A stretch of 64,000 nt of DNA, from contig NZ_QGEG01000002.1 in assembly GCF_003149745.1 (NCBI RefSeq), forward strand, positions 744,001 to 808,000, given 5' to 3'. The stretch is from Flagellimonas aquimarina. GTDB lineage: Bacteria > Bacteroidota > Bacteroidia > Flavobacteriales > Flavobacteriaceae. A model generated the notes under the pieces. That model saw only the letters and a list, made by a program, of their open reading frames with translations, was not told where the DNA came from and searched no databases. Of this stretch, positions 5,803 through 57,922 are shown one piece after another (positions within the stretch are counted from its first letter, which is position 1; each line of letters starts with the position of its first letter). The translations under genes and the position numbers were made by a program.

Positions 5803-6007
5803 AAAAGTTTTTTCCTTAGTTTTTGTTGGTTAGCTTTAAAGCTTTAGATTAAACACCTAAGGGGAATTAGATGCTTATTGGATGCGACAAATATGTGAAC
5901 AAATCTTTGAAAAAAAAAATGATTTAGTGGTTGAATATTCTGTTTTTTTTTCGCATGTTTCCTTATTGTTAACCAAGCCTCTAAATATATAATTTTTCAG
6001 TTAATAT

Positions 6008-6406
6008 ATGAGATTAAATTCATTTTCTTTTAGGGTCCGTTATGGAGAAACCGACCAAATGGGTGTTGTGTACCACGGCAACTATGCACAATACCTAGAA
6101 ATGGGCAGGGTAGAGTGGTTAAGAGCTTTGGGAGTAACTTATAGGAGCATGGAGGAAAATGGAATCATACTACCTGTAATTTCCCTACAAATAGACTATA
6201 AAAAATCTGCCCTTTACGATGATTTGATTACTGTAGAAACCATTATTAAAAAAGCTCCATTGGTAAAGATTGAATTCGACTATAAAATCTATAATGAAAC
6301 TAGGGAATTACTGGCTGAAGCAAATACTGTCCTTGCTTTTATAGATAAGAAAACCAATAGGCCTATAAAATGTCCAGATTACATTCTGGATAAATTGGAT
6401 TTTTAA
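6008..6406 (+). CDS. Acyl-CoA thioesterase, YbgC-like hotdog fold
   Basis: A 132-residue 4HBT/YbgC-type thioesterase hydrolysing small acyl-CoA or acyl-ACP thioesters. The active-site segment YGETDQMGVVYHGNYAQYL contains the catalytic aspartate (Asp16) and the following His23, and the start MRLNSFSFRVRYGETD is at the usual distance. In proteobacteria YbgC sits next to tol-pal; that context is absent. Its stop shares the tetranucleotide TTAA with the stop of the convergent YigZ gene, leaving no room for a terminator between them. Confidence 0.9.
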   Translation: MRLNSFSFRVRYGETDQMGVVYHGNYAQYLEMGRVEWLRALGVTYRSMEENGIILPVISLQIDYKKSALYDDLITVETIIKKAPLVKIEFDYKIYNETRELLAEANTVLAFIDKKTNRPIKCPDYILDKLDF

Positions 6407-7014
6407 TCTCTTGATTGAACCATGACGTTTTGCATTTCATCGAACATTTGCTTGGTTTGAACTTCTTGACTCTTCCTTACCGAAATAAGAAGTGAACATC
6501 TCAGGTCCATTTTTTGCGAAAGAATGACAATCCCTTTTTGCTTAATAGAGCGCATTACCTTGTCCATTTCTGAATAATCAAAATCCAATTGAAAATTTGA
6601 ATCTATTGTTTTTTCAATGATGACCGCATGCTCTAATGCCATTTGGGCAGAGGAGCGGTAAGCTTGAATAAGTCCGCCCACACCAAGTTTTGTTCCTCCA
6701 AATACTCTGGCAACGGCAACCAGAACATTGGTAACTCCAAAAGATTGAATCTGCCCATAGATGGGCATTCCTGCTGAGTTGTTGGGTTCACCATCATCAT
6801 TTGCCCTATAGGTATGTGTCTTTTCTCCCAATTGCCATGCAAAGCATACGTGACCGGCGGCATGGTGTTTCTTGCGCAACGATTCTATGATTGGCTTAAC
6901 GTCTTCTTCCGAAGAAATTGGGAAAGCATAGCCAAAAAATTTACTTTTCCTATCCTTAAATAGAATTCCAGCAGAAGGTTCTTCTAAAGTCTTATAAATG
7001 TCTTCTTCTTTCAT
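6403..7014 (-). CDS. YigZ/IMPACT family protein
   Basis: A 203-residue YigZ-family protein. The conserved core is clear: AGHVCFAWQLG, then the acidic loop RANDDGEPNNSAGMPI (GEPSGTAG in relatives), then VFGGTKLGVGGLIQAY, with a ferredoxin-like C-terminal domain. YigZ is related to the eukaryotic translation regulator IMPACT; its bacterial role is unsettled. The start overlaps the transporter stop as TAATG, the third such junction in a ribD-HAD-EamA-YigZ operon. Confidence 0.9.
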   Translation of the reverse strand: MKEEDIYKTLEEPSAGILFKDRKSKFFGYAFPISSEEDVKPIIESLRKKHHAAGHVCFAWQLGEKTHTYRANDDGEPNNSAGMPIYGQIQSFGVTNVLVAVARVFGGTKLGVGGLIQAYRSSAQMALEHAVIIEKTIDSNFQLDFDYSEMDKVMRSIKQKGIVILSQKMDLRCSLLISVRKSQEVQTKQMFDEMQNVMVQSRD

Positions 7015-7877
7015 TAGAACAAGGCTACTAGCATAATACTAACTATGGCCAAGACTATGCCGCCACAGTTTTTTAAACTTAGTTTCTCCTTGAAGATAAT
7101 TATTCCGAGAAGGGTGGAGAGCATTACAATGGCTACATTGTTTAGTGTAAAAATGGCTGCACTATCAAAACCTTTGTTTTGAAGTGCTCTAATAAGAAAG
7201 AAAATAGAGAAATAATTGGGGACACCGAGCACAATACCGCCTGCAATATTTCTAAAATTCACTTTCGCAGGGTTTTTCATAGCCTTTATACCAATAAAAA
7301 CAAATCCAGTAAGTGCTGCAAAACCAAAAACCATAGATGAAAAAATAGCAACTTCTTCAGGGTCTAAATGATTTTCTTGAAAATACTTCATGCAGATATC
7401 AATGATACCCGAGCCTAAAAAAACAAGTAATGGAAGTAACAAGGCCTTCTTGGATAGTACAATTGATTTTTCTTTCATTGAAGCAAAATAAACCGCAGCT
7501 AAAGCCAGTAGAATTCCAATTATTTGAAAAACGGACAAGGCCTCCTTGTAAAACATAACTCCGAAGACCACAGGCATAACCAATGACATCTTTGTTGCCA
7601 CTGAAGCTACGGCAACACCCGCAACCTGAGATGCTCTGGCCATAAGATTGAAAACTATGATAAAAAAAACTCCAAGAGCCAGTGTGCCTAAAAACCATGA
7701 CTTGTTTACAATTTCATTAAAGTTCACATCACCGTCATACAAAACAAGACCTACTAAAAAGGCAACAACGTAGTTGGTAATGATAGCATAAAGTGTTTGA
7801 ATTTTATAGGTGCTGAACAATTTAAAAATGACAAAAATTAAACTGGAGCAAAGAACACTAAGTGCAAGGTTCAACAT
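7014..7877 (-). CDS. EamA/DMT-superfamily transporter
   Basis: A 287-residue integral membrane protein with about ten predicted helices in two EamA repeats, typical of the drug/metabolite transporter superfamily (for example AGVAVASVATKMSLVMPVVF in the first repeat). Substrate is unknown; its place behind ribD would fit a riboflavin-related or general metabolite, but that is only inference. I choose the ATG at 7877 because it overlaps the HAD stop as TAATG and puts the first helix at the N-terminus. A longer form starting at 7931 would add 18 hydrophilic residues inside the HAD gene. Confidence 0.85.
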   Translation of the reverse strand: MLNLALSVLCSSLIFVIFKLFSTYKIQTLYAIITNYVVAFLVGLVLYDGDVNFNEIVNKSWFLGTLALGVFFIIVFNLMARASQVAGVAVASVATKMSLVMPVVFGVMFYKEALSVFQIIGILLALAAVYFASMKEKSIVLSKKALLLPLLVFLGSGIIDICMKYFQENHLDPEEVAIFSSMVFGFAALTGFVFIGIKAMKNPAKVNFRNIAGGIVLGVPNYFSIFFLIRALQNKGFDSAAIFTLNNVAIVMLSTLLGIIIFKEKLSLKNCGGIVLAIVSIMLVALF

Positions 7878-51247: not shown

Positions 51248-51904
51248 TTAATCCAAAAGGAAAAAATCTTCCTTACGAAGTTGTTTTGTTTTAAGGTTGT
51301 ACACGATTACATCATGTTGTAAATCGTCATCAAAATAGAGTCCCCAATAATCAAAATAACTTTTGTTGTTTTTTTCCAATGTTAAGACACTTCGGGTGTG
51401 ATCTTCAAAAACGGGAACAAAAATCTCATAAGGCATTTCTGTCAATCCCTTTGTGAGATATACAAAATGTGCACTGGTTTTGAATATTATTGCAGCTAAT
51501 TGTTGAGGAATACTATAATCACTTATTCTAGAAACTATAATGGAGGTATCCCTAAAGTGCAAAGAAAGTTCAGCAATATCAATAGCATTTTTATTCACTT
51601 TGCTCAGCTTTTGAAAAGCTGCATCAAATGAAGATATGCCCTTTGCACCTTCTAAATCGCAAGCAAAACCACCCCAATTTCCTTTGTTAAAATGATGAAG
51701 ACTTTCTGTAAGTCCAAAATTACAATATAGGTCCAGAATTAAATCTGTTTTCTCAGTACTTGTATGGTAATGGCATTGCACTTTTACCTCGGCATAAAAA
51801 TCTTTTTCCAGGATTTTAATGAAATCATCCAGACCATCGGCGGTAACAAAAGCCTGTTGGCCGTCTAGGGGAAAATTAGATTTGACTTTTCTTTGGAATG
51901 GCAT
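51248..51904 (-). CDS. Cytoplasmic protein of unknown function in the signalling island
   Basis: A 218-residue protein without signal peptide or membrane helix; I do not recognise the family. The ATG at 51904 gives MPFQRKVKSNFPLDGQQAF; a TTG at 51910 would add two residues. Visible features are an N-terminal acidic helix (ADGLDDFIKILEKDF), a histidine-rich strand VQCHYHTSTEK, CNFGLTESLHHFNKGNWGGF, and a C-terminal acidic stretch FDYWGLYFDDDLQHDV. It has its own candidate promoter embedded in an 11-bp dyad, and the CTGGGGGTTT element further upstream, so it looks like a regulated target of the neighbouring system. Confidence 0.6.
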   Translation of the reverse strand: MPFQRKVKSNFPLDGQQAFVTADGLDDFIKILEKDFYAEVKVQCHYHTSTEKTDLILDLYCNFGLTESLHHFNKGNWGGFACDLEGAKGISSFDAAFQKLSKVNKNAIDIAELSLHFRDTSIIVSRISDYSIPQQLAAIIFKTSAHFVYLTKGLTEMPYEIFVPVFEDHTRSVLTLEKNNKSYFDYWGLYFDDDLQHDVIVYNLKTKQLRKEDFFLLD

Positions 51905-51926
51905 ATTCAATGGATTGCATAGTTGT

Positions 51927-52080: not shown

Positions 52081-52749
52081 TTATATGAATCCTCTATTTT
52101 TTGCCGCTAAAATTAAAGCAAGATCATTTTCATTTTCAGTACCAAAAAGTGATTTTAAATGCCGCTTTCTATTTTCAATAGAAGAGGGGGACAACCTTAT
52201 AAAATGTTCCAAATCTTTATTTTTGGTACCTATGGAAAGATGGTACAATATCTTTTTATCCTTCTCATCTAAGCTAATATCATTGGTCATTTTCTTTCTA
52301 ATGGCAGAAAGCGCTTTGGATGAGTAATAGGGAGGATTTAAGGTGATGGTCTTAACAGCATCTTCCAGAGTTTTTGGGTCTATATCCGTTTTTACCAAAT
52401 ATCCATCTGGGTCAACGGTTTTTAGAATACTGTTTATTCTGTAATTGTCACTAAAAGAAGACATGAAGGCAATCTTGGTCTCTGGCACTAGTTTACGTGC
52501 CAAAACTCCCAAATCTTCTCCGGTATGTGGCTGATCTTCGTTAGGTGGAAATAATTGAACATCTAAAAATAGAATATCATACTTGAATGAATTAGCGGAT
52601 TCTTCTATAAGTTTTCTGCCCATTTCATAAGTATTGGCGGTATCTACAATGATACTATGACCTTCAAAAACAATTCGTTCAAGGATAAATTTATACCCAA
52701 GCATGGTCATCTCATGATCGTCTATCGCCAATATTCTCAGTGTCTTCAT
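52081..52749 (-). CDS. Response regulator with LuxR-type helix-turn-helix
   Basis: A 222-residue two-component regulator. The receiver has acidic residues Asp10/Asp11 (ILAIDDHEMT), phospho-acceptor Asp63 in YDILFLDVQLFPP, and the lysine in GYLVKTDID, so phosphorylation is possible. The C-terminal HTH reads DEKDKKILYHLSIGTKNKDL, then IRLSPSSIENRKRHLKSLFG, of the NarL/LuxR kind. The start may be the ATG at 52749 (chosen; MKTLRILAIDD) or an ATG at 52767 that overlaps the kinase stop. It pairs with the TPR kinase just upstream. Confidence 0.88.
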   Translation of the reverse strand: MKTLRILAIDDHEMTMLGYKFILERIVFEGHSIIVDTANTYEMGRKLIEESANSFKYDILFLDVQLFPPNEDQPHTGEDLGVLARKLVPETKIAFMSSFSDNYRINSILKTVDPDGYLVKTDIDPKTLEDAVKTITLNPPYYSSKALSAIRKKMTNDISLDEKDKKILYHLSIGTKNKDLEHFIRLSPSSIENRKRHLKSLFGTENENDLALILAAKNRGFI

Positions 52750-52759
52750 ACCAGTTGAT

Positions 52760-54856
52760 TTAAACATTCAGTACTTCTTTGCGTTCCGAAATGTCATTTA
52801 AACTATCTAATCTTATGTAGCTATTTGGCAATGAAACGGTAACAACGGTTCCCTTACCTTTTTTACTATCAATATCTAAAGTGCCTTTTACTTTTTTAAC
52901 TCTTGAAATTACATTTCGCAAACCAATACCGCGTTTTCCCTTGCTTATGTCAAAACCGACACCATCATCTGCAATAGTCAATTTCAAAATGTTGTCTTCT
53001 GTACTGAAATTTACTTTTGCATTTTTACATTTTGCGTGTTTTACACAGTTTTGCAGCGATTCTTGAACAATTCTGTATGCATTGATCTTTATATCGCCTT
53101 GCAAATCATCCCAATCCACATTTTCGTCATACGTAAAAGAACATGAAATCCCAGAAGAATCACTTATAGTTCTTATAAGGTCATCCAGGGATACAATAAA
53201 GTTATAAAATTTTTGATAAGAAGCATCACTAAGCTCATGTGAAATGGTCCTTATTTCTTCCTCCAATTCCCTTAGTTTTTCAATAAGTTCTGCCCTTTGT
53301 TCAACAGAAGCTTCATCTTCTTTGTCATTTAAACCGCTAAGGATCAATCGTATTCCGAGCATTTGGCCCAAAATACCATCATGTAGCTCCTCTGAGATAC
53401 GTTTTTGCTCCAATTGCTTGCCTTCTTCAAACTTACCTTGTTGCGAAAGCATTAGGTTATAAATTTCTTGGTTGCTTTCTTGTTGTTTTTGTTGAAACTT
53501 TAACCTGTTGTTGCTTATGCGCTGCCAGATAATGGTAAAAAGTGAGATACCCAGAAGTACAAGGCCCAATACAACCCCTATCCATATCTGTTTTTGGCGG
53601 GAAAGCAGTTCATTGCGTTGGATCACCTCATCTGTCTCCAAACGGATACGGGCAAATTTATCTCGTATGGCCCGTTCTTCGTCTTTTATTTTTTCGCTTA
53701 GGTCATAATACTCATTGGAATAAGCAACTGCGTTTTCACTATCTATATTTGTGAGTAGGCGTAATACCTCTAGATACCTGTCATTGTTTGAAGTTTCCTT
53801 TGCCAATAATCTAGATTCTTTGGCATATTGAGTAGAATTAATAGTGTCTCCTTGAGCAGCTAAAAGCTCTGCATAGTATTGTTTAGTTCTGGCCTGTTCA
53901 AATGAATAACCAATACTATCATTCACATTCATAGCATTTAAAAGAATGGCATTAGCCTGTGCATAATCTTTTTCGCCTTTAAACAAAGTATAAGCATGAC
54001 TTACTAGGACTAAGGAAAATAATCTAGGACTTTCAGTCTTGAAACTATTATCGCTTAAGAGTTCTTGATACGCAACTTTTGCTTTTTTATATTTCTTCTG
54101 ATCTAAAAGGACACTCGCAATGTTATTTTTGTTCTGCCTTATGTATTCAATCTTGTTTTTAGGTGAATACCTTTGTAGATAAGTATATGCCTTTTGATAG
54201 TATTCCAATGCTTTTTGCGAATTATTCATACCCTTGGCGATAATTCCTAACATATTGTTACAATTGTAAAGTCTTCCATCATCCTCCAAATCATCAAAGA
54301 TTTTTAAAGCAGACGTGATACTCACTTCAGCTCCCAAGTAATCTTTATAAGAATCTTGAATTCTACCCATACTATATAACATTCGCCCCTTTAAAGAAAG
54401 TGATGTTGAATCTATGGCTAATTGATCAAAACTTTTATATGCCTTTCTATAATGAAAGTAAGCGCTATCCAAAATATCATTTGAACGAAAGAAAGAAGCT
54501 AAATCCCAATGGGATTCGCCAAGAGCCATATATATTTTGGCATTTTGTGACAAATCCAGAACTTTTCGGTTCATTTTTCTAAATTTCAAAGAATCGTTTA
54601 GTTTTTTATAGGCCAGAGAAATTCTGGAAAGATGACTTAAACGAAGTGTATCATTGGAGAGTTCATTTGCATCAAACTCGGCTTTTTCTAAAAATTGTTT
54701 TCTTTCATTGATAGAGAGATGTGAGCTGTCGCGCGCAATATTAATCCATGTTTTTATTGTCTCGGACTTAGGATTAGACCCAATTTCCCTATGGGTTGAT
54801 TCCTTCCCACAGGAAGACAAAATAAGAAGAACTAGAATTATATACTTGTTTTTCAA
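52760..54856 (-). CDS. TPR-domain lipoprotein sensor histidine kinase (HisKA_3 type)
   Basis: A 698-residue kinase. A lipobox (LILSSC, Cys16) follows the hydrophobic N-terminus, so the periplasmic end may be lipid-anchored. Then come about seven TPR repeats (residues about 60-390; for example ALEYYQKAYTYLQRYS, KKYKKAKVAYQELLSD), a membrane helix (IWIGVVLGLVLLGISLFTII, about 425-445), a coiled coil, a HisKA_3 domain with His492 in SEELHDGILGQMLG, and a HATPase ending with GIGLRNVISRVKKVKG. TTG is the start, since an in-frame stop lies shortly upstream. It matches the neighbouring LuxR-type regulator. Confidence 0.88.
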   Translation of the reverse strand: MKNKYIILVLLILSSCGKESTHREIGSNPKSETIKTWINIARDSSHLSINERKQFLEKAEFDANELSNDTLRLSHLSRISLAYKKLNDSLKFRKMNRKVLDLSQNAKIYMALGESHWDLASFFRSNDILDSAYFHYRKAYKSFDQLAIDSTSLSLKGRMLYSMGRIQDSYKDYLGAEVSITSALKIFDDLEDDGRLYNCNNMLGIIAKGMNNSQKALEYYQKAYTYLQRYSPKNKIEYIRQNKNNIASVLLDQKKYKKAKVAYQELLSDNSFKTESPRLFSLVLVSHAYTLFKGEKDYAQANAILLNAMNVNDSIGYSFEQARTKQYYAELLAAQGDTINSTQYAKESRLLAKETSNNDRYLEVLRLLTNIDSENAVAYSNEYYDLSEKIKDEERAIRDKFARIRLETDEVIQRNELLSRQKQIWIGVVLGLVLLGISLFTIIWQRISNNRLKFQQKQQESNQEIYNLMLSQQGKFEEGKQLEQKRISEELHDGILGQMLGIRLILSGLNDKEDEASVEQRAELIEKLRELEEEIRTISHELSDASYQKFYNFIVSLDDLIRTISDSSGISCSFTYDENVDWDDLQGDIKINAYRIVQESLQNCVKHAKCKNAKVNFSTEDNILKLTIADDGVGFDISKGKRGIGLRNVISRVKKVKGTLDIDSKKGKGTVVTVSLPNSYIRLDSLNDISERKEVLNV

Positions 54857-54910
54857 TTTGATATACTAAAAAGTAAGCGTTTTTTTGTTTTCTTTTACTA
54901 CAAGGTAACA

Positions 54911-54943
54911 AAAAAAGCCCCAAACCGAATAGGATTTAGGGCC
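54911..54943 (-). terminator. Intrinsic terminator after the small lipoproteins
   Basis: Read on the minus strand, GCCCTAAA pairs with TTTGGGGC across a 10-base loop and is followed by a TTTTTTT run. It ends the unit of the two small lipoproteins, 22 bases after the last stop. Confidence 0.7.
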
Positions 54944-54964
54944 ATGTTTCAAAATTGGATTCAT

Positions 54965-55183
54965 TCATAACTCTCTATCGTCGTTCATCACAGAAATTAA
55001 GTTTTCAGAACTATTTCTTACAATGAAGTGAACCAGATTCTTTTGATTTACTATTGTTTCGTTTGTTCTTGAAGTTGTGATGACTCTCGAATTCGAGAAA
55101 TTCTTGTCACTATAATTTACATTACATGATAAAAAGCTAAAACCAATTGACAGAACAGCTGTTTTTGTTAAAAAAGTTGTCAT
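54965..55183 (-). CDS. Small lipoprotein (72 residues), function unknown
   Basis: A short exported protein with a lipobox FSFLSC (Cys20 counting from the ATG at 55183), then NVNYSDKNFSNSRVI and a mostly polar tail LVHFIVRNSSENLISVMNDD. An upstream TTG at 55198 would add five residues. Nothing points to an enzyme. It follows the 52-residue lipoprotein gene (55204-55362) by 20 bases and ends in a terminator. The pair lies downstream of the LytTR regulator in the same direction. Confidence 0.65.
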   Translation of the reverse strand: MTTFLTKTAVLSIGFSFLSCNVNYSDKNFSNSRVITTSRTNETIVNQKNLVHFIVRNSSENLISVMNDDREL

Positions 55184-55203
55184 TTTATTGGGTTTCAAGA
55201 TGC

Positions 55204-55362
55204 TTATCTATCATCAGGGTTTGATGAATCAGAGTCGGTGGAATCCTGATCTTCCAAACTAGCCATTAGGTTTTCTGTTTCCTGTACATCTGTCTCTGCT
55301 TCGCAAGAAAACATTCCAAAAGTCATCACTGCAATTGCCAAAATACTTAGCGTCTTTCTCAT
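55204..55362 (-). CDS. Very small acidic lipoprotein (52 residues), function unknown
   Basis: A short open frame that ordinary length cut-offs miss. It encodes MRKTLSILAIAVMTFGMFSC, a textbook lipoprotein signal with lipobox GMFSC (Cys20), followed by 32 residues rich in Asp, Glu and Ser: EAETDVQETENLMASLEDQ and DSTDSDSSNPDDR. The mature peptide is therefore strongly negative and probably disordered. The stop is 20 bases before the next small lipoprotein's ATG, suggesting one mRNA. The signal and lipobox make a real gene likely despite its size. No homologue is known to me. Confidence 0.7.
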   Translation of the reverse strand: MRKTLSILAIAVMTFGMFSCEAETDVQETENLMASLEDQDSTDSDSSNPDDR

Positions 55363-55415
55363 AATATTAGGTTTTAGGGTTAGAACTTTAGGTTCACGAC
55401 GGCAAGATATTTAGC

Positions 55416-55447
55416 ACAAATGTCTAGTTGCTTAGTGCTACAAATGT
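55416..55447. repeat. Direct repeats ACAAATGT upstream of the small lipoproteins
   Basis: ACAAATGT at 55416-55423 recurs at 55440-55447, 24 bases start to start. LytTR regulators bind two direct repeats about 21-22 bases apart, and a LytTR gene is next door. The spacing is slightly long, so this remains a suggestion. Confidence 0.4.
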
Positions 55448-55501
55448 TTTAGTATTTGTAATAATTGTATTAGAATTTTAAGAAAAACTATGAGAATTAA
55501 C

Positions 55502-56236
55502 TTAATTAAGGGCTTTTATGGATGCTTTGGAGAGCATTTCCTTTAAAGTATCTATTTTGCCTTTATAGGTTTTGGAAAAAGGAAGTTCTTTCTCCGTTTC
55601 ATTGCGAAGCGTGCAAATGGATTTGCCGTAATTGATACGAGATACGTACCTGCTATTTAGAATATAGCTCTGGTGTATGCGAATAAAACTTTCTGGAAGT
55701 CTTTCCTCAAAAGACTTCAGGGTTTTAAAAGCACTTACCACATTGCCATCCCGCATAAAAAAGTCAGTAGCGTTGTTATCCGACTTTAGATACAAAATAT
55801 CATTGGTATCTAAATAGTGATAATCATTGTAAGTTTTCAGGCAGATGGTGGAGGGCATGTTTTGTTTAGGATGCAATTTTCGCAAACGCATTATGCTCTT
55901 GCGCACATCAAACTCATTATGGGGAAGAATCCAATAATCAAAAAAACCACTTTTAATGGCATTATATGCGTACTTTTTTGTTGTTGAAAAGCCTATGACA
56001 ATTGGCAGTGCCTGCATAAACTGGTTCAACTCTGTAATCATCTGAAAGTAAGGCATGCTGTCTTCAACAAGGTTGATAAAGACTACATCTGGTGTAAACT
56101 TTAAAATAGTATTCAATCCTTCTTCAGGGTTTTGAGCTGTACCCATACATGTAAAATCACCATACTCTTGCAAATAAAGTTGCAATTGTAGCTTTGTAGT
56201 AGCATTAGAGTCTATTATGATATACGTATAATCCAT
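55502..56236 (-). CDS. LytTR-type regulator with a degenerate receiver domain
   Basis: A 244-residue protein laid out as a LytTR response regulator. The C-terminal LytTR domain (about 135-240) is typical: YHYLDTNDILYLKSDNNATD, FEERLPESFIRIHQSYILN, and YGKSICTLRNETEKELPFSK. The receiver (1-120) has lost its chemistry: the acidic pair is Asp9-Ser10 (IIIDSNATT), the phospho-acceptor position is Asn55 (DVVFINL), and the lysine is replaced by Leu104 (DYWILPHNE). It is therefore probably phosphorylation-independent. The small lipoproteins follow in the same direction. No kinase gene is adjacent. Confidence 0.85.
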   Translation of the reverse strand: MDYTYIIIDSNATTKLQLQLYLQEYGDFTCMGTAQNPEEGLNTILKFTPDVVFINLVEDSMPYFQMITELNQFMQALPIVIGFSTTKKYAYNAIKSGFFDYWILPHNEFDVRKSIMRLRKLHPKQNMPSTICLKTYNDYHYLDTNDILYLKSDNNATDFFMRDGNVVSAFKTLKSFEERLPESFIRIHQSYILNSRYVSRINYGKSICTLRNETEKELPFSKTYKGKIDTLKEMLSKASIKALN

Positions 56237-56292
56237 GTGTAAAGTACTGGTTGCAAGTTACTAACGCATGAAAAGAACTCACTACAGTTTTC

Positions 56293-56313
56293 CCTTAAAA
56301 AAACTGGGGGTTT
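56293..56313 (-). promoter_or_regulatory. Copy B of a shared upstream element (CTGGGGGTTT type)
   Basis: Plus strand: CCTTAAAAA, then AA, then CTGGGGGTTT, differing from copy A (51973-51995) only at the two central bases. It lies 57-77 bases upstream of the LytTR start. Confidence 0.5.
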
Positions 56314-56365
56314 CCCACAAAATCACCTTTTTTTTGTTAAATAACCATGAATTTTGAAGGAAGAA

Positions 56366-57922
56366 TCAATTATCCGCAAGATTTTCATATGCACCAATAT
56401 CAGGATTTAGGGTCCTATTCACTCCTAAAATATCAGATAGTATTGGTGGGACAATATTGGAATCGGCAGCATCTAAAGCAGCAGAATTTGCTCCTATTTG
56501 AAACTGATTTTCAAAAGGCTTTGTGAAATCTGGCTCTGAGTTAAAAATTATATTCTCATATAAACCAGTATCTTCAAAATTAAACAAAGGGTTATCTGTA
56601 AACTGGTTGTTAGAATCATTAAACCGCAAAAGACAGTTTCTAAAACTAAAATTAAAAGCTGCGTTCGTATCCTGTTGCAGTGAAAGTTCAATGGACTGTG
56701 TGCCATCAATTATACAATTGATGAAATCCGCATTTTCTAAATCTCTAGTAATCGTTTCTCCCGTAGTGGATTGTATAAAGTTGTCCAGGGCCAGTGTTAC
56801 TCCAGAACGGAACCCGTTGTTCCAATAGTTGGCCAGTGTACAATGAGCAAATCTGTACTTTCCACCAGAATTTGCATGGAACGAAATATTGCCCGCACCG
56901 CCCAAGACCATATTTTCTGCTACTACACTTGCTTTTATTGCCCAAAGGTTGGTGTCCAAACTATTGTAAATCTGAGAGTTTGTTAGTGTTAGGGTAGGAG
57001 TGGTCAACAGGTCATCACCCTCCACACGTAGACCAACTGTTGCGTTTTTAAGGGTGAGATAGGAAATACTGTTGTTTATGCTTCCCTCTCTTAACCAAAT
57101 AGTTCCCCATTGTCCGGGTTCATTGGCATAAGACGACTCCAGTCTGTCACCTTCAAAGATAACTTCGTTTTCCAATAACTCCTGATCTTCGCTCAATAAG
57201 CCATTTACCAGTAGAGACGCTCCTGAACTTACTATGAGCCCGGAGTTTTTGTGAAAATGTATGCGAGCTCCAGCTTCAATGGATAAGGTGTTGCCATCAG
57301 GTACTGCTGCATAGCCATAAATTACGTAAGGCTTTTCATTGGTAAACTGGAGTTCATCTGGTTCTAAAAGAAAACCTTCAATGCTAATTTCATTCCCCTC
57401 TTCGTCCAAACCAAGAACCAAGGTTTCCTTTGTACCGTCCGATAGTTCTCTCGGATATAAAAAAACAGCATCCTTTACCAGCGTAACCAATGGTATTTCC
57501 TGCGCATTGGAGCCGTTACCAAAAATGATGTCATCAGTATACAAAAACTCATTTTCAAAAGTTTGGGCAACGTCAAAAGTGGTCTCAATAAAAACAAACA
57601 AGCTGTCTTTGGCCAATAAAGGTATGTTGGTGAATTCTTTTCCGGCCATGCCATCTACATTAAGCCTATAGCTGCTGTTCTGACCGCTTTCCAGACCAAT
57701 AAAAGGAACTAGGATATCATCACTGCTTCTGTTGTATACTTTAAGAGTATAGGTACTGCTTCCAATATTGGTGAAGATGGTATCCAAAAAAACAGTGTCT
57801 TTGGAAAATTCCAAGTTACCTGAGCTAGGAGAATAATCAAAATCCTTGCGGCAAGAGCTCCATGTAATTACAAGAGCAAGCCCTAAAACTATCGCGATTA
57901 ACTTTGTATACCAGTGGTTCAC
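56366..57922 (-). CDS. Lipoprotein with parallel beta-helix, function unknown
   Basis: A 518-residue lipoprotein (lipobox ITWSSC, Cys24). The N-terminal part has an Ig-like fold (VFLDTIFTNIGSSTYTLKVY). From about residue 200 it is a right-handed beta-helix with repeated short strands: NTLSIEAGARIHFHKNSGL, SYLTLKNATVGLRVEG, ADFINCIIDGTQSIE. The C-terminal NSAALDAADSNIV ... GAYENLADN ending is the choice-of-anchor Q feature. Beta-helix proteins often bind or cleave polysaccharide; no catalytic residues are evident. GTG start overlapping the thioesterase stop as GTGA. Confidence 0.72.
   Translation of the reverse strand: MNHWYTKLIAIVLGLALVITWSSCRKDFDYSPSSGNLEFSKDTVFLDTIFTNIGSSTYTLKVYNRSSDDILVPFIGLESGQNSSYRLNVDGMAGKEFTNIPLLAKDSLFVFIETTFDVAQTFENEFLYTDDIIFGNGSNAQEIPLVTLVKDAVFLYPRELSDGTKETLVLGLDEEGNEISIEGFLLEPDELQFTNEKPYVIYGYAAVPDGNTLSIEAGARIHFHKNSGLIVSSGASLLVNGLLSEDQELLENEVIFEGDRLESSYANEPGQWGTIWLREGSINNSISYLTLKNATVGLRVEGDDLLTTPTLTLTNSQIYNSLDTNLWAIKASVVAENMVLGGAGNISFHANSGGKYRFAHCTLANYWNNGFRSGVTLALDNFIQSTTGETITRDLENADFINCIIDGTQSIELSLQQDTNAAFNFSFRNCLLRFNDSNNQFTDNPLFNFEDTGLYENIIFNSEPDFTKPFENQFQIGANSAALDAADSNIVPPILSDILGVNRTLNPDIGAYENLADN

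Follow-up and report, generated by a model that had tools for sequence, protein, structure and literature searches.

How is a transcription factor controlled that has kept the fold of a receiver domain but lost the residues that take up phosphate? The question is raised by a LytTR gene in the 64,000-nucleotide stretch of the Flagellimonas aquimarina genome analysed here (the window). An earlier note on this DNA had held that the receiver of this protein cannot be phosphorylated in the usual way, and had proposed that a kinase cascade could act on it at the transcription level through a shared upstream element.

The LytTR gene and its receiver

55502..56236, minus strand (56236→55502): LytTR transcription factor with a degenerate (pseudo-)receiver, 244 aa; D9, S10, N55, S84 and L104

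In a Pfam profile search, the LytTR domain (PF04397) scored 60.7 bits against a cut-off of 22.6, and Response_reg scored 21.0 bits, which is under its cut-off of 30.2. The AlphaFold model (mean pLDDT, 87.4) retains the receiver fold, in agreement with the fold-like pattern previously noticed. The best full-length structural match is ComE (4cbv); the LytTR domain of AgrA (3bs1) was also matched, and the receiver matches that of Staphylococcus aureus LytR (6m8o; TMt, 0.85). In the model, β3 comprises residues 51-55 and β5 residues 100-103. Because β3 ends at residue 55, Asn55 occupies the acceptor position, and because β5 ends at residue 103, Leu104, which directly follows it, occupies the lysine position. 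Asp59 (in VEDS), the alternative phospho-acceptor that the earlier note had considered, lies in the loop after β3 according to both the model and the alignment and was ruled out.

The genome of F. aquimarina contains 25 LytTR matches, from which 14 paralogues were chosen for their intact receivers; all 14 aligned sequences have D10, D55, T84 and K104, against S10, N55 and L104 in the window protein. This alignment confirmed the previously reported Asp9-Ser10, Asn55 and Leu104 of this minus-strand ORF. A phosphorylatable receiver has an acidic pair, an acceptor Asp, a Thr/Ser and a Lys, and the window protein departs from this set at S10, N55 and L104. By the features tested in sequence and model, it is a pseudo-receiver, with the fold present and the catalytic residues gone, and, judged by its residues, a LytTR-domain protein rather than a phosphorylatable LytTR response regulator. 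Another LytTR gene of the same genome (G000:C2:903265-903534, locus L019) also seems to encode a receiver without the acceptor Asp, with Ser at the aligned position.

An orthologue with 70-95% identity was found in 34 of 35 same-genus genomes, the sole exception being G002 (98% complete). At a threshold of E 1e-25, relatives were present in 120 of the 397 genomes sampled from the family and in 5 of the 295 sampled from the class (own genome counted in both); all five belong to the same family, and no spread beyond the family was seen in the class sample at this threshold. The nearest named relatives (72-80% identity) are from Muricauda, Allomuricauda and Flagellimonas.

Residues were compared in 48 close module-bearing sequences (the window and 47 relatives) and 26 diverged ones. 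In the close set, neither an acidic residue at position 10 nor D55 occurs (0/48 each); residue 55 is Asn in 46 sequences and His in the other two, and K104 is present in one. The diverged set has N (17), D (5), E (2), R (1) or C (1) at position 55, D at position 10 in 3 sequences and K at position 104 in 15. Thus, the loss of the residues for usual phosphorylation is conserved among close relatives, as far as sequences tell, and the possibility raised in the earlier note that orthologues retain the canonical residues did not hold. Its question of whether they keep Asn55 and Leu104 receives a divided answer: Asn55 is kept in most sequences of both sets, and position 104 is almost never Lys in the close set but is Lys in more than half of the diverged one. 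D100, Y101, W102 and P105 are kept in at least 95% of group A of the residue alignment, and the DNA-binding domain is conserved across 70 aligned LytTR sequences.

A different state was found in more distant genera. Among loci titled Flavobacterium, 25 of 28 have Glu55, and T84 and K104 are kept in 22 and 23 of these 25, respectively; many Flavobacterium relatives retain all but the acceptor. Loci titled Aquimarina (n = 7) have Glu55 in six cases and Asp55 in one. A LytTR tree of 118 family members with 6 outgroup rows showed strong clustering of the residue states, which require 13 changes against a shuffled mean of 50.8. A full phosphorylation site is present in only two of the 118 members, L120 and L121. 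L121 has neither a kinase nor a regulator gene downstream, and the surroundings of L120 cannot be judged because the contig ends ~750 bp past the gene. The Flavobacterium relatives L229, L231 and L243 carry Gln, Gly or Arg at residue 55; they form their own clade and have a kinase match but no regulator match downstream.

Glu at the acceptor position is a known phosphomimic. In the LytTR protein YpdB, the D53E replacement resulted in constitutive target expression, as described in the relevant passage of PMC4847170, and Glu and Asn are named as the commonest replacements of the acceptor Asp in the part of PMC4395418 concerned with aspartate-less receivers. By analogy, these data suggest that Glu55 in Flavobacterium represents a locked active form. 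The LytTR family thus appears to have abandoned phosphate control by two routes, having either lost it (Asn, with other site residues gone) or frozen it (Glu, with the rest of the site mostly kept), and both routes are compatible with an always-ready LytTR protein.

The conserved unit and its peptide genes

55204..55362, minus strand: small exported peptide precursor (export predicted), 52 aa; signal-like sequence, lipobox-like Cys and acidic C-terminus ending NPDDR
54965..55183, minus strand: second small protein of exported type, ending NDDREL; 72 aa if started at ATG, 77 aa if started at the TTG at 55198
54910..54946, minus strand: terminator-like hairpin and T-run (-13.5 kcal/mol; TTTTTTT), after the peptide genes and before the kinase gene
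52760..54856, minus strand: sensor histidine kinase with an N-terminal hydrophobic segment, a TPR sensor of ~340 residues, one membrane helix, HisKA_3 (His492) and HATPase_c
52081..52767, minus strand: LuxR/NarL-like response regulator with a complete phosphorylation site (D16, D17, D69 and K126)

The LytTR gene is the first member of a unit whose order on the same strand is LytTR, small exported peptide, terminator-like hairpin, TPR histidine kinase and canonical response regulator. In 74 of 81 loci, the LytTR gene is followed on its own strand by the kinase gene and then the regulator gene; the seven exceptions comprise three loci cut by contig ends (L110, L117 and L120), two with the regulator alone (L086 and L095) and two with neither gene (L115 and L121). 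The same succession was found in 62 of 80 named loci, a set that overlaps with the former in organisms. Because the whole chromosomal neighbourhood is conserved in close relatives, linkage among these says little. In two sets of diverged relatives (33 and 48 loci), however, the kinase gene was found in 28 and 43 loci and the regulator gene in 29 and 41 loci, respectively, and each flanking gene tested was found in at most one locus per set. The unit therefore appears, from gene content, to hold together where flanking genes change. The kinase His is kept in all 75 sequences examined, and D17, D69 and K126 of the regulator in all 76. As the kinase/regulator pair is intact, the degeneration of the receiver does not reflect a wider decay of the locus.

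The upstream neighbour of the LytTR gene in the window encodes a choice-of-anchor-like protein. Several variants of the unit were encountered. In L086, L095, L206 and L218, the regulator gene directly follows the LytTR gene with no peptide or kinase gene between them, and a prepilin-like ORF lies further downstream in the first two. In three Flavobacterium relatives (L246, L248 and L250), the regulator gene starts <30 bp from the LytTR gene, the kinase match comes after the regulator, and a different small exported-type ORF lies between the two. L144 (G210) carries two tandem TPR kinases in one module (matches at +490 and +2685), and L084 (G090; 5937-7789) carries two tandem LytTR paralogues before a peptide precursor with CDDCAHDSDDRET repeats. 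Downstream of the regulator gene in the window is a gene for a 220-aa hypothetical protein without a family (51248-51910, minus strand), a homologue of which lies near the module in 46 of 47 close relatives of set 1.

The first 445 residues of the kinase were modelled confidently (pLDDT, 93) as an all-helical TPR structure, the final long helix of which includes the membrane segment. We infer that the TPR region, which precedes the single membrane helix and the kinase domain, lies on the extracytoplasmic side. The structures nearest to the model are LGN TPR domains, many of them in complex with partner peptides according to their titles, and Rap receptors (8rtc, 8rst and 6t46), several with their pheromones, are found among ranks 33-48 of the structural matches. 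TPR folds are common and occur in many proteins without shared ligands, and the match therefore indicates a capacity rather than a ligand.

Peptide precursors of relatives were collected as ORFs between the LytTR and kinase genes with a basic start and a hydrophobic stretch, a rule that may admit a few wrong frames. This gave 137 distinct precursors, 45-177 aa in length (median, 55), whose export is predicted from the hydrophobic N-termini. An exported-type precursor (by this prediction) is thus encoded beside a sensor kinase, as in peptide-pheromone two-component systems. A Cys at positions 15-30, possibly of a lipobox, is present in 101 of the 137, and Asp is the commonest residue among the last 25. 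Tandem repeats were detected by script in 19 of the 137: the precursor of Zobellia barbeyronii (L186) contains ten copies of a 14-residue unit, that of a Dokdonia (L205) seven copies, and those of Arenibacter (L194 and L196) four and five, and the tandem precursors of Flavobacterium and a near relative (L230-L254) contain two to five copies and no Cys at positions 15-30. Many repeat units include RR, KK or RK. Of the 72 loci scanned, 66 have a T-run preceded by a hairpin of -8 kcal/mol or lower (a raw count without a shuffled control).

Among the peptide genes of the genus, differences at codon positions 1, 2 and 3 numbered 1870, 958 and 3494, respectively (all pairs of 21 genes), a pattern that fits coding selection. 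A search of the own genome for a second copy of the peptide returned nothing beyond a chance match at E 0.07. Counterparts of the second small protein were found in the window's genus, where they are often present and variable in sequence, with an end that mostly follows (D)D(E)R-x-L; under a strict rule, an R-x-L end, mostly DDREL-like, was found in 13 of 21 loci. Further ends were seen in L161 and, as NDGRQP, in L162. Profile matches of the small proteins to SpoVAE, SpoVABEA and BSAP5b (E 0.006-0.011) were under the cut-offs and were dismissed.

Co-divergence of peptide and sensor was assessed by partial rank correlations, which amounted to 0.21 (70 loci), 0.06 (45), 0.17 (20), 0.06 (25) and 0.25 (25); the observed values were reached in 0, 71, 21, 81 and 13 of 300 permutations, respectively, and for other genes of the locus the partial values ranged up to a similar size. 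Co-divergence of the two beyond that of the rest of the locus is thus weak and inconsistent.

Elements before the LytTR and peptide genes

56281..56312, minus strand: E1 (AACCCCCAGTTTTTTTAAGGGAAAACTGTAGT), a conserved promoter element whose core lies ~74 bp ahead of the LytTR start; the module's response regulator is the presumed binder
55445..55498, minus strand: three direct repeats (AATTCTCATAG / AATTCTAATACA / AATACTAAAACA) recurring every 21 bp, presumably an array of LytTR binding sites

Several other genera have E1 in dyad form, for example ACCATAG-N5-CTATGGT. When the 48 close loci were scored for dyads, the top one fell between -73 and -79 relative to the LytTR start in 34 of them, and in 14 of the 48 it exceeded all 30 shuffles. 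The window's own promoter scored 9 of 14 against a shuffle mean of 9.3 and did not beat its shuffles, because the form found in its genus is CCNNAG-T7-AAGG. This genus form matches in 38 of 40 genus genomes, next to the LytTR gene in 36, against one match of the backward control in all 40. In Flavobacterium, no E1 was recognised by eye.

The upstream element of the earlier note, thought to be shared with other genes of the window, was not borne out: one match above chance, that before the LytTR gene itself, was found in the window, and one in the whole genome. A repeat search of 54850-56450 yielded a single exact pair, of 12-mers, and otherwise only two-copy matches that were short and imperfect. 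The idea of a kinase cascade acting at the level of transcription has fared better and fits the locus well, as a canonical pair lies directly downstream and the LytTR start is preceded, with almost constant spacing, by a conserved element.

Eleven more E1-like matches were found elsewhere in congeners, and eight of them, together with one array-like place, were fetched. The match of L273 precedes a further small gene, whose product has a lipobox-like SCEAES stretch; the others lie before lipoprotein-like genes (L275, L276 and L278), before a gene resembling uvrC (L272 and L277) and before other genes (L271 and L274). Since E1-like matches thus precede other genes of congeners, the likely reader of E1 is the module's regulator or a relative of it, and the matches elsewhere suggest a wider regulon of this regulator class.

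In relatives, the LytTR and peptide genes are separated by a gap with three direct repeats (AATWCTNNCAGA-like in the genus), which recur every 21 bp in most close loci. Scored with a simple consensus, the array outdid all 20 shuffles in 40 of the 46 close loci and in a single one of the 27 diverged loci. For the diverged loci and Flavobacterium, recognition was by eye only, as a changed array that keeps the period of 21. Allowing up to two mismatches, the array has one match in the own genome, in the LytTR-peptide gap, and none for the backward control. The 40 genus genomes contain 69 such matches, 33 of which adjoin the LytTR gene (in 33 genomes; 19/19 exact and 7/9 one-mismatch matches), and the remaining 36 do not exceed the 42 matches of the backward control. 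A two-repeat CAGA pattern has matches in 31 of the 40 genomes, 29 of which have it beside the LytTR gene; the own genome is not among the 31. With up to one mismatch, 22 of its 23 matches adjoin the LytTR gene, and three genomes contain one backward-control match each. Because the array pattern was derived from these loci, adjacency to LytTR is partly a matter of construction, and the informative part of the evidence is the uniqueness of the array and its count in other genomes. According to the pertinent section of PMC4847170, published LytTR sites consist of two 9-11-nt repeats with 11-13-nt spacers, which the period of 21 bp fits. As the sole array of the own genome lies at the peptide gene, the circuit would mainly feed itself.

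A possible circuit, its alternatives and related systems

The peptide gene, the 21-bp array and the tandem-repeat precursors of relatives, all absent from the earlier note, point to a self-contained peptide-sensing circuit. We propose, at about even odds, a peptide-sensing-like circuit of Flavobacteriaceae in which the pseudo-receiver LytTR protein serves as the second, dose-controlled tier of a two-tier switch. The exported small peptide would act as a signal on the extracytoplasmic TPR sensor of the histidine kinase, which, to judge from gene order and intact residues, would phosphorylate its canonical LuxR-like partner. The phosphorylated regulator may then bind E1, as the conservation and nearly fixed position of this element suggest, and change, presumably raise, transcription of the LytTR gene. 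Having no residues to take phosphate, the LytTR protein would be active in proportion to its own amount. It would bind the three 21-bp-phased repeats before the peptide gene and, if it acts as an activator, close a feedback loop. Who binds what, the activation and the role of the peptide as ligand are deduced here from the arrangement of genes and elements.

A more far-reaching version, which we advance tentatively and at somewhat less than even odds, is a prohormone-like peptide pheromone system of Gram-negative bacteria, with tandem precursors, a TPR receptor kinase, two-tier amplification and a dose-driven change of the receiver. Tandem-repeat precursors would be exported and cut at basic residues, and the resulting short peptides would be read by the extracytoplasmic TPR receptor kinase. 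The tiers would be the phosphorylated LuxR-like regulator and then the phosphate-free LytTR protein feeding the peptide gene, and the decay (Asn55) or freezing (Glu55) of the receiver would have evolved because the second tier is dose-controlled. We know of no precursor design of repeated cores and basic sites from Gram-negative bacteria.

The same wiring could also serve a peptide that is an end product, such as a metal-binding, adhesive or antimicrobial lipopeptide of the surface or periplasm or an envelope-stress sentinel, with the TPR kinase sensing something else. Such a product would account for the Cys, perhaps of a lipobox, at positions 15-30 in 101 of 137 distinct precursors, for the weak co-divergence with the sensor and, if metal is bound, for the prevalence of Asp in the last 25 residues. 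Tandem short cores, many with RR, KK or RK, are nevertheless easier to explain as released peptides, the tandem precursors of L230-L254 lack the Cys, and the only array of the own genome lies at the peptide gene itself, as expected of a circuit that mainly feeds itself; we therefore regard an end product as rather unlikely, though a serious competitor. Less probable still is control of the pseudo-receiver by a partner (the phosphorylated LuxR-like regulator, the kinase or a ligand), in which the activity of the LytTR protein and not its amount would be regulated. The kept receiver fold, with D100, Y101, W102 and P105 in at least 95% of group A, speaks for such control, and FrzS and WhiI/BldM are given as pseudo-receivers acting through partners in a passage of PMC12632262. 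The conserved element before the LytTR gene, however, argues for control of amount, and Glu55 in Flavobacterium suggests a locked active form, in line with the account of YpdB D53E in part of PMC4847170.

The choice of reader for the array could also be wrong. Another of the 25 LytTR matches in the own genome, at least 14 of which have canonical receivers, might bind it, with the window protein acting elsewhere or as a repressor, but the array adjoins the orthologous LytTR gene in the genus and in other genera and has one copy in the own genome, and we consider such a division of roles improbable. The least credible explanation is that the LytTR protein is a decaying regulator without function: the receiver does fall under the Pfam cut-off, but an orthologue at 70-95% identity persists in 34 of 35 congeners and the DNA-binding domain is conserved in the 70 aligned sequences.

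With respect to known systems, the dose-controlled two-tier switch has its nearest functional analogy in ComCDE/Agr and its nearest described wiring apparently in CmrRST. In ComCDE/Agr, the LytTR regulator receives its phosphate from a polytopic membrane kinase. As in the present unit, a peptide gene, a histidine kinase and a LytTR regulator occur together, and LytTR direct repeats are found at target promoters, but here the kinase has a TPR sensor and a LuxR-like partner, and the LytTR protein lacks the phosphorylation site. RRNPP/Rap receptors are cytoplasmic, bind imported peptides and have no kinase domain. They share a TPR superhelix with the window kinase, and that of Rap binds short peptides (8rtc, 8rst and 6t46), although fold similarity is weak evidence; in contrast to a cytoplasmic receptor, the TPR region of the window precedes a membrane helix and a kinase domain and would lie on the extracytoplasmic side.

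In CmrRST of Clostridioides difficile, as portrayed in part of PMC12632262, a normal kinase/regulator pair is likewise linked to a pseudo-receiver transcription factor, the level of which may carry the signal. CmrR and CmrT belong to the OmpR family according to the corresponding passage of PMC12548384, whereas the pseudo-receiver protein here is of LytTR type and its gene stands before a peptide gene with a repeat array; the passages on CmrRST in PMC12632262 and PMC12548384 mention neither a peptide gene nor a TPR sensor. LytTR regulatory systems (LRS; HdrRM and BrsRM) also place a LytTR protein in a feedback loop, with direct repeats mostly 12 bp apart, and have a membrane inhibitor protein beside the regulator, as outlined in sections of PMC6193735. 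No such inhibitor was seen at the window locus, where the peptide, TPR kinase and regulator genes lie downstream and the gene for the choice-of-anchor-like protein upstream, and where the degenerate receiver has been retained. Aspartate-less receivers and pseudo-receivers treated in parts of PMC4395418 and PMC12632262 similarly combine a receiver fold with the absence of the acceptor Asp; the term 'LytTR' does not occur in the main text of either paper, and in the present case both routes (Asn and Glu) are found in one family linked to a two-component system. Among the literature matches listed, with preprints and most subscription journals lying outside, no publication was recognised as describing the unit.

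The switching of pseudo-receivers is called a mystery in a passage of a 2025 perspective (PMC12632262). The present locus family offers a natural series of related LytTR pseudo-receivers, with a conserved upstream element, a probable target array and a partner two-component system in one locus and with both Asn and Glu replacements; such a series makes the idea of dose control directly testable. Flavobacteriaceae are major degraders of marine polysaccharides, and if the peptide is a signal, the unit would represent a widespread cell-cell signalling system in this family. In a coevolution study of Flavobacterium johnsoniae, as reported in an excerpt of PMC10197871, two genes with adjacent tags (FJOH_RS09515 and RS09520), one for a LytTR protein and one for a histidine kinase, were both mutated, and this pair is a possible lead to the module in that species.
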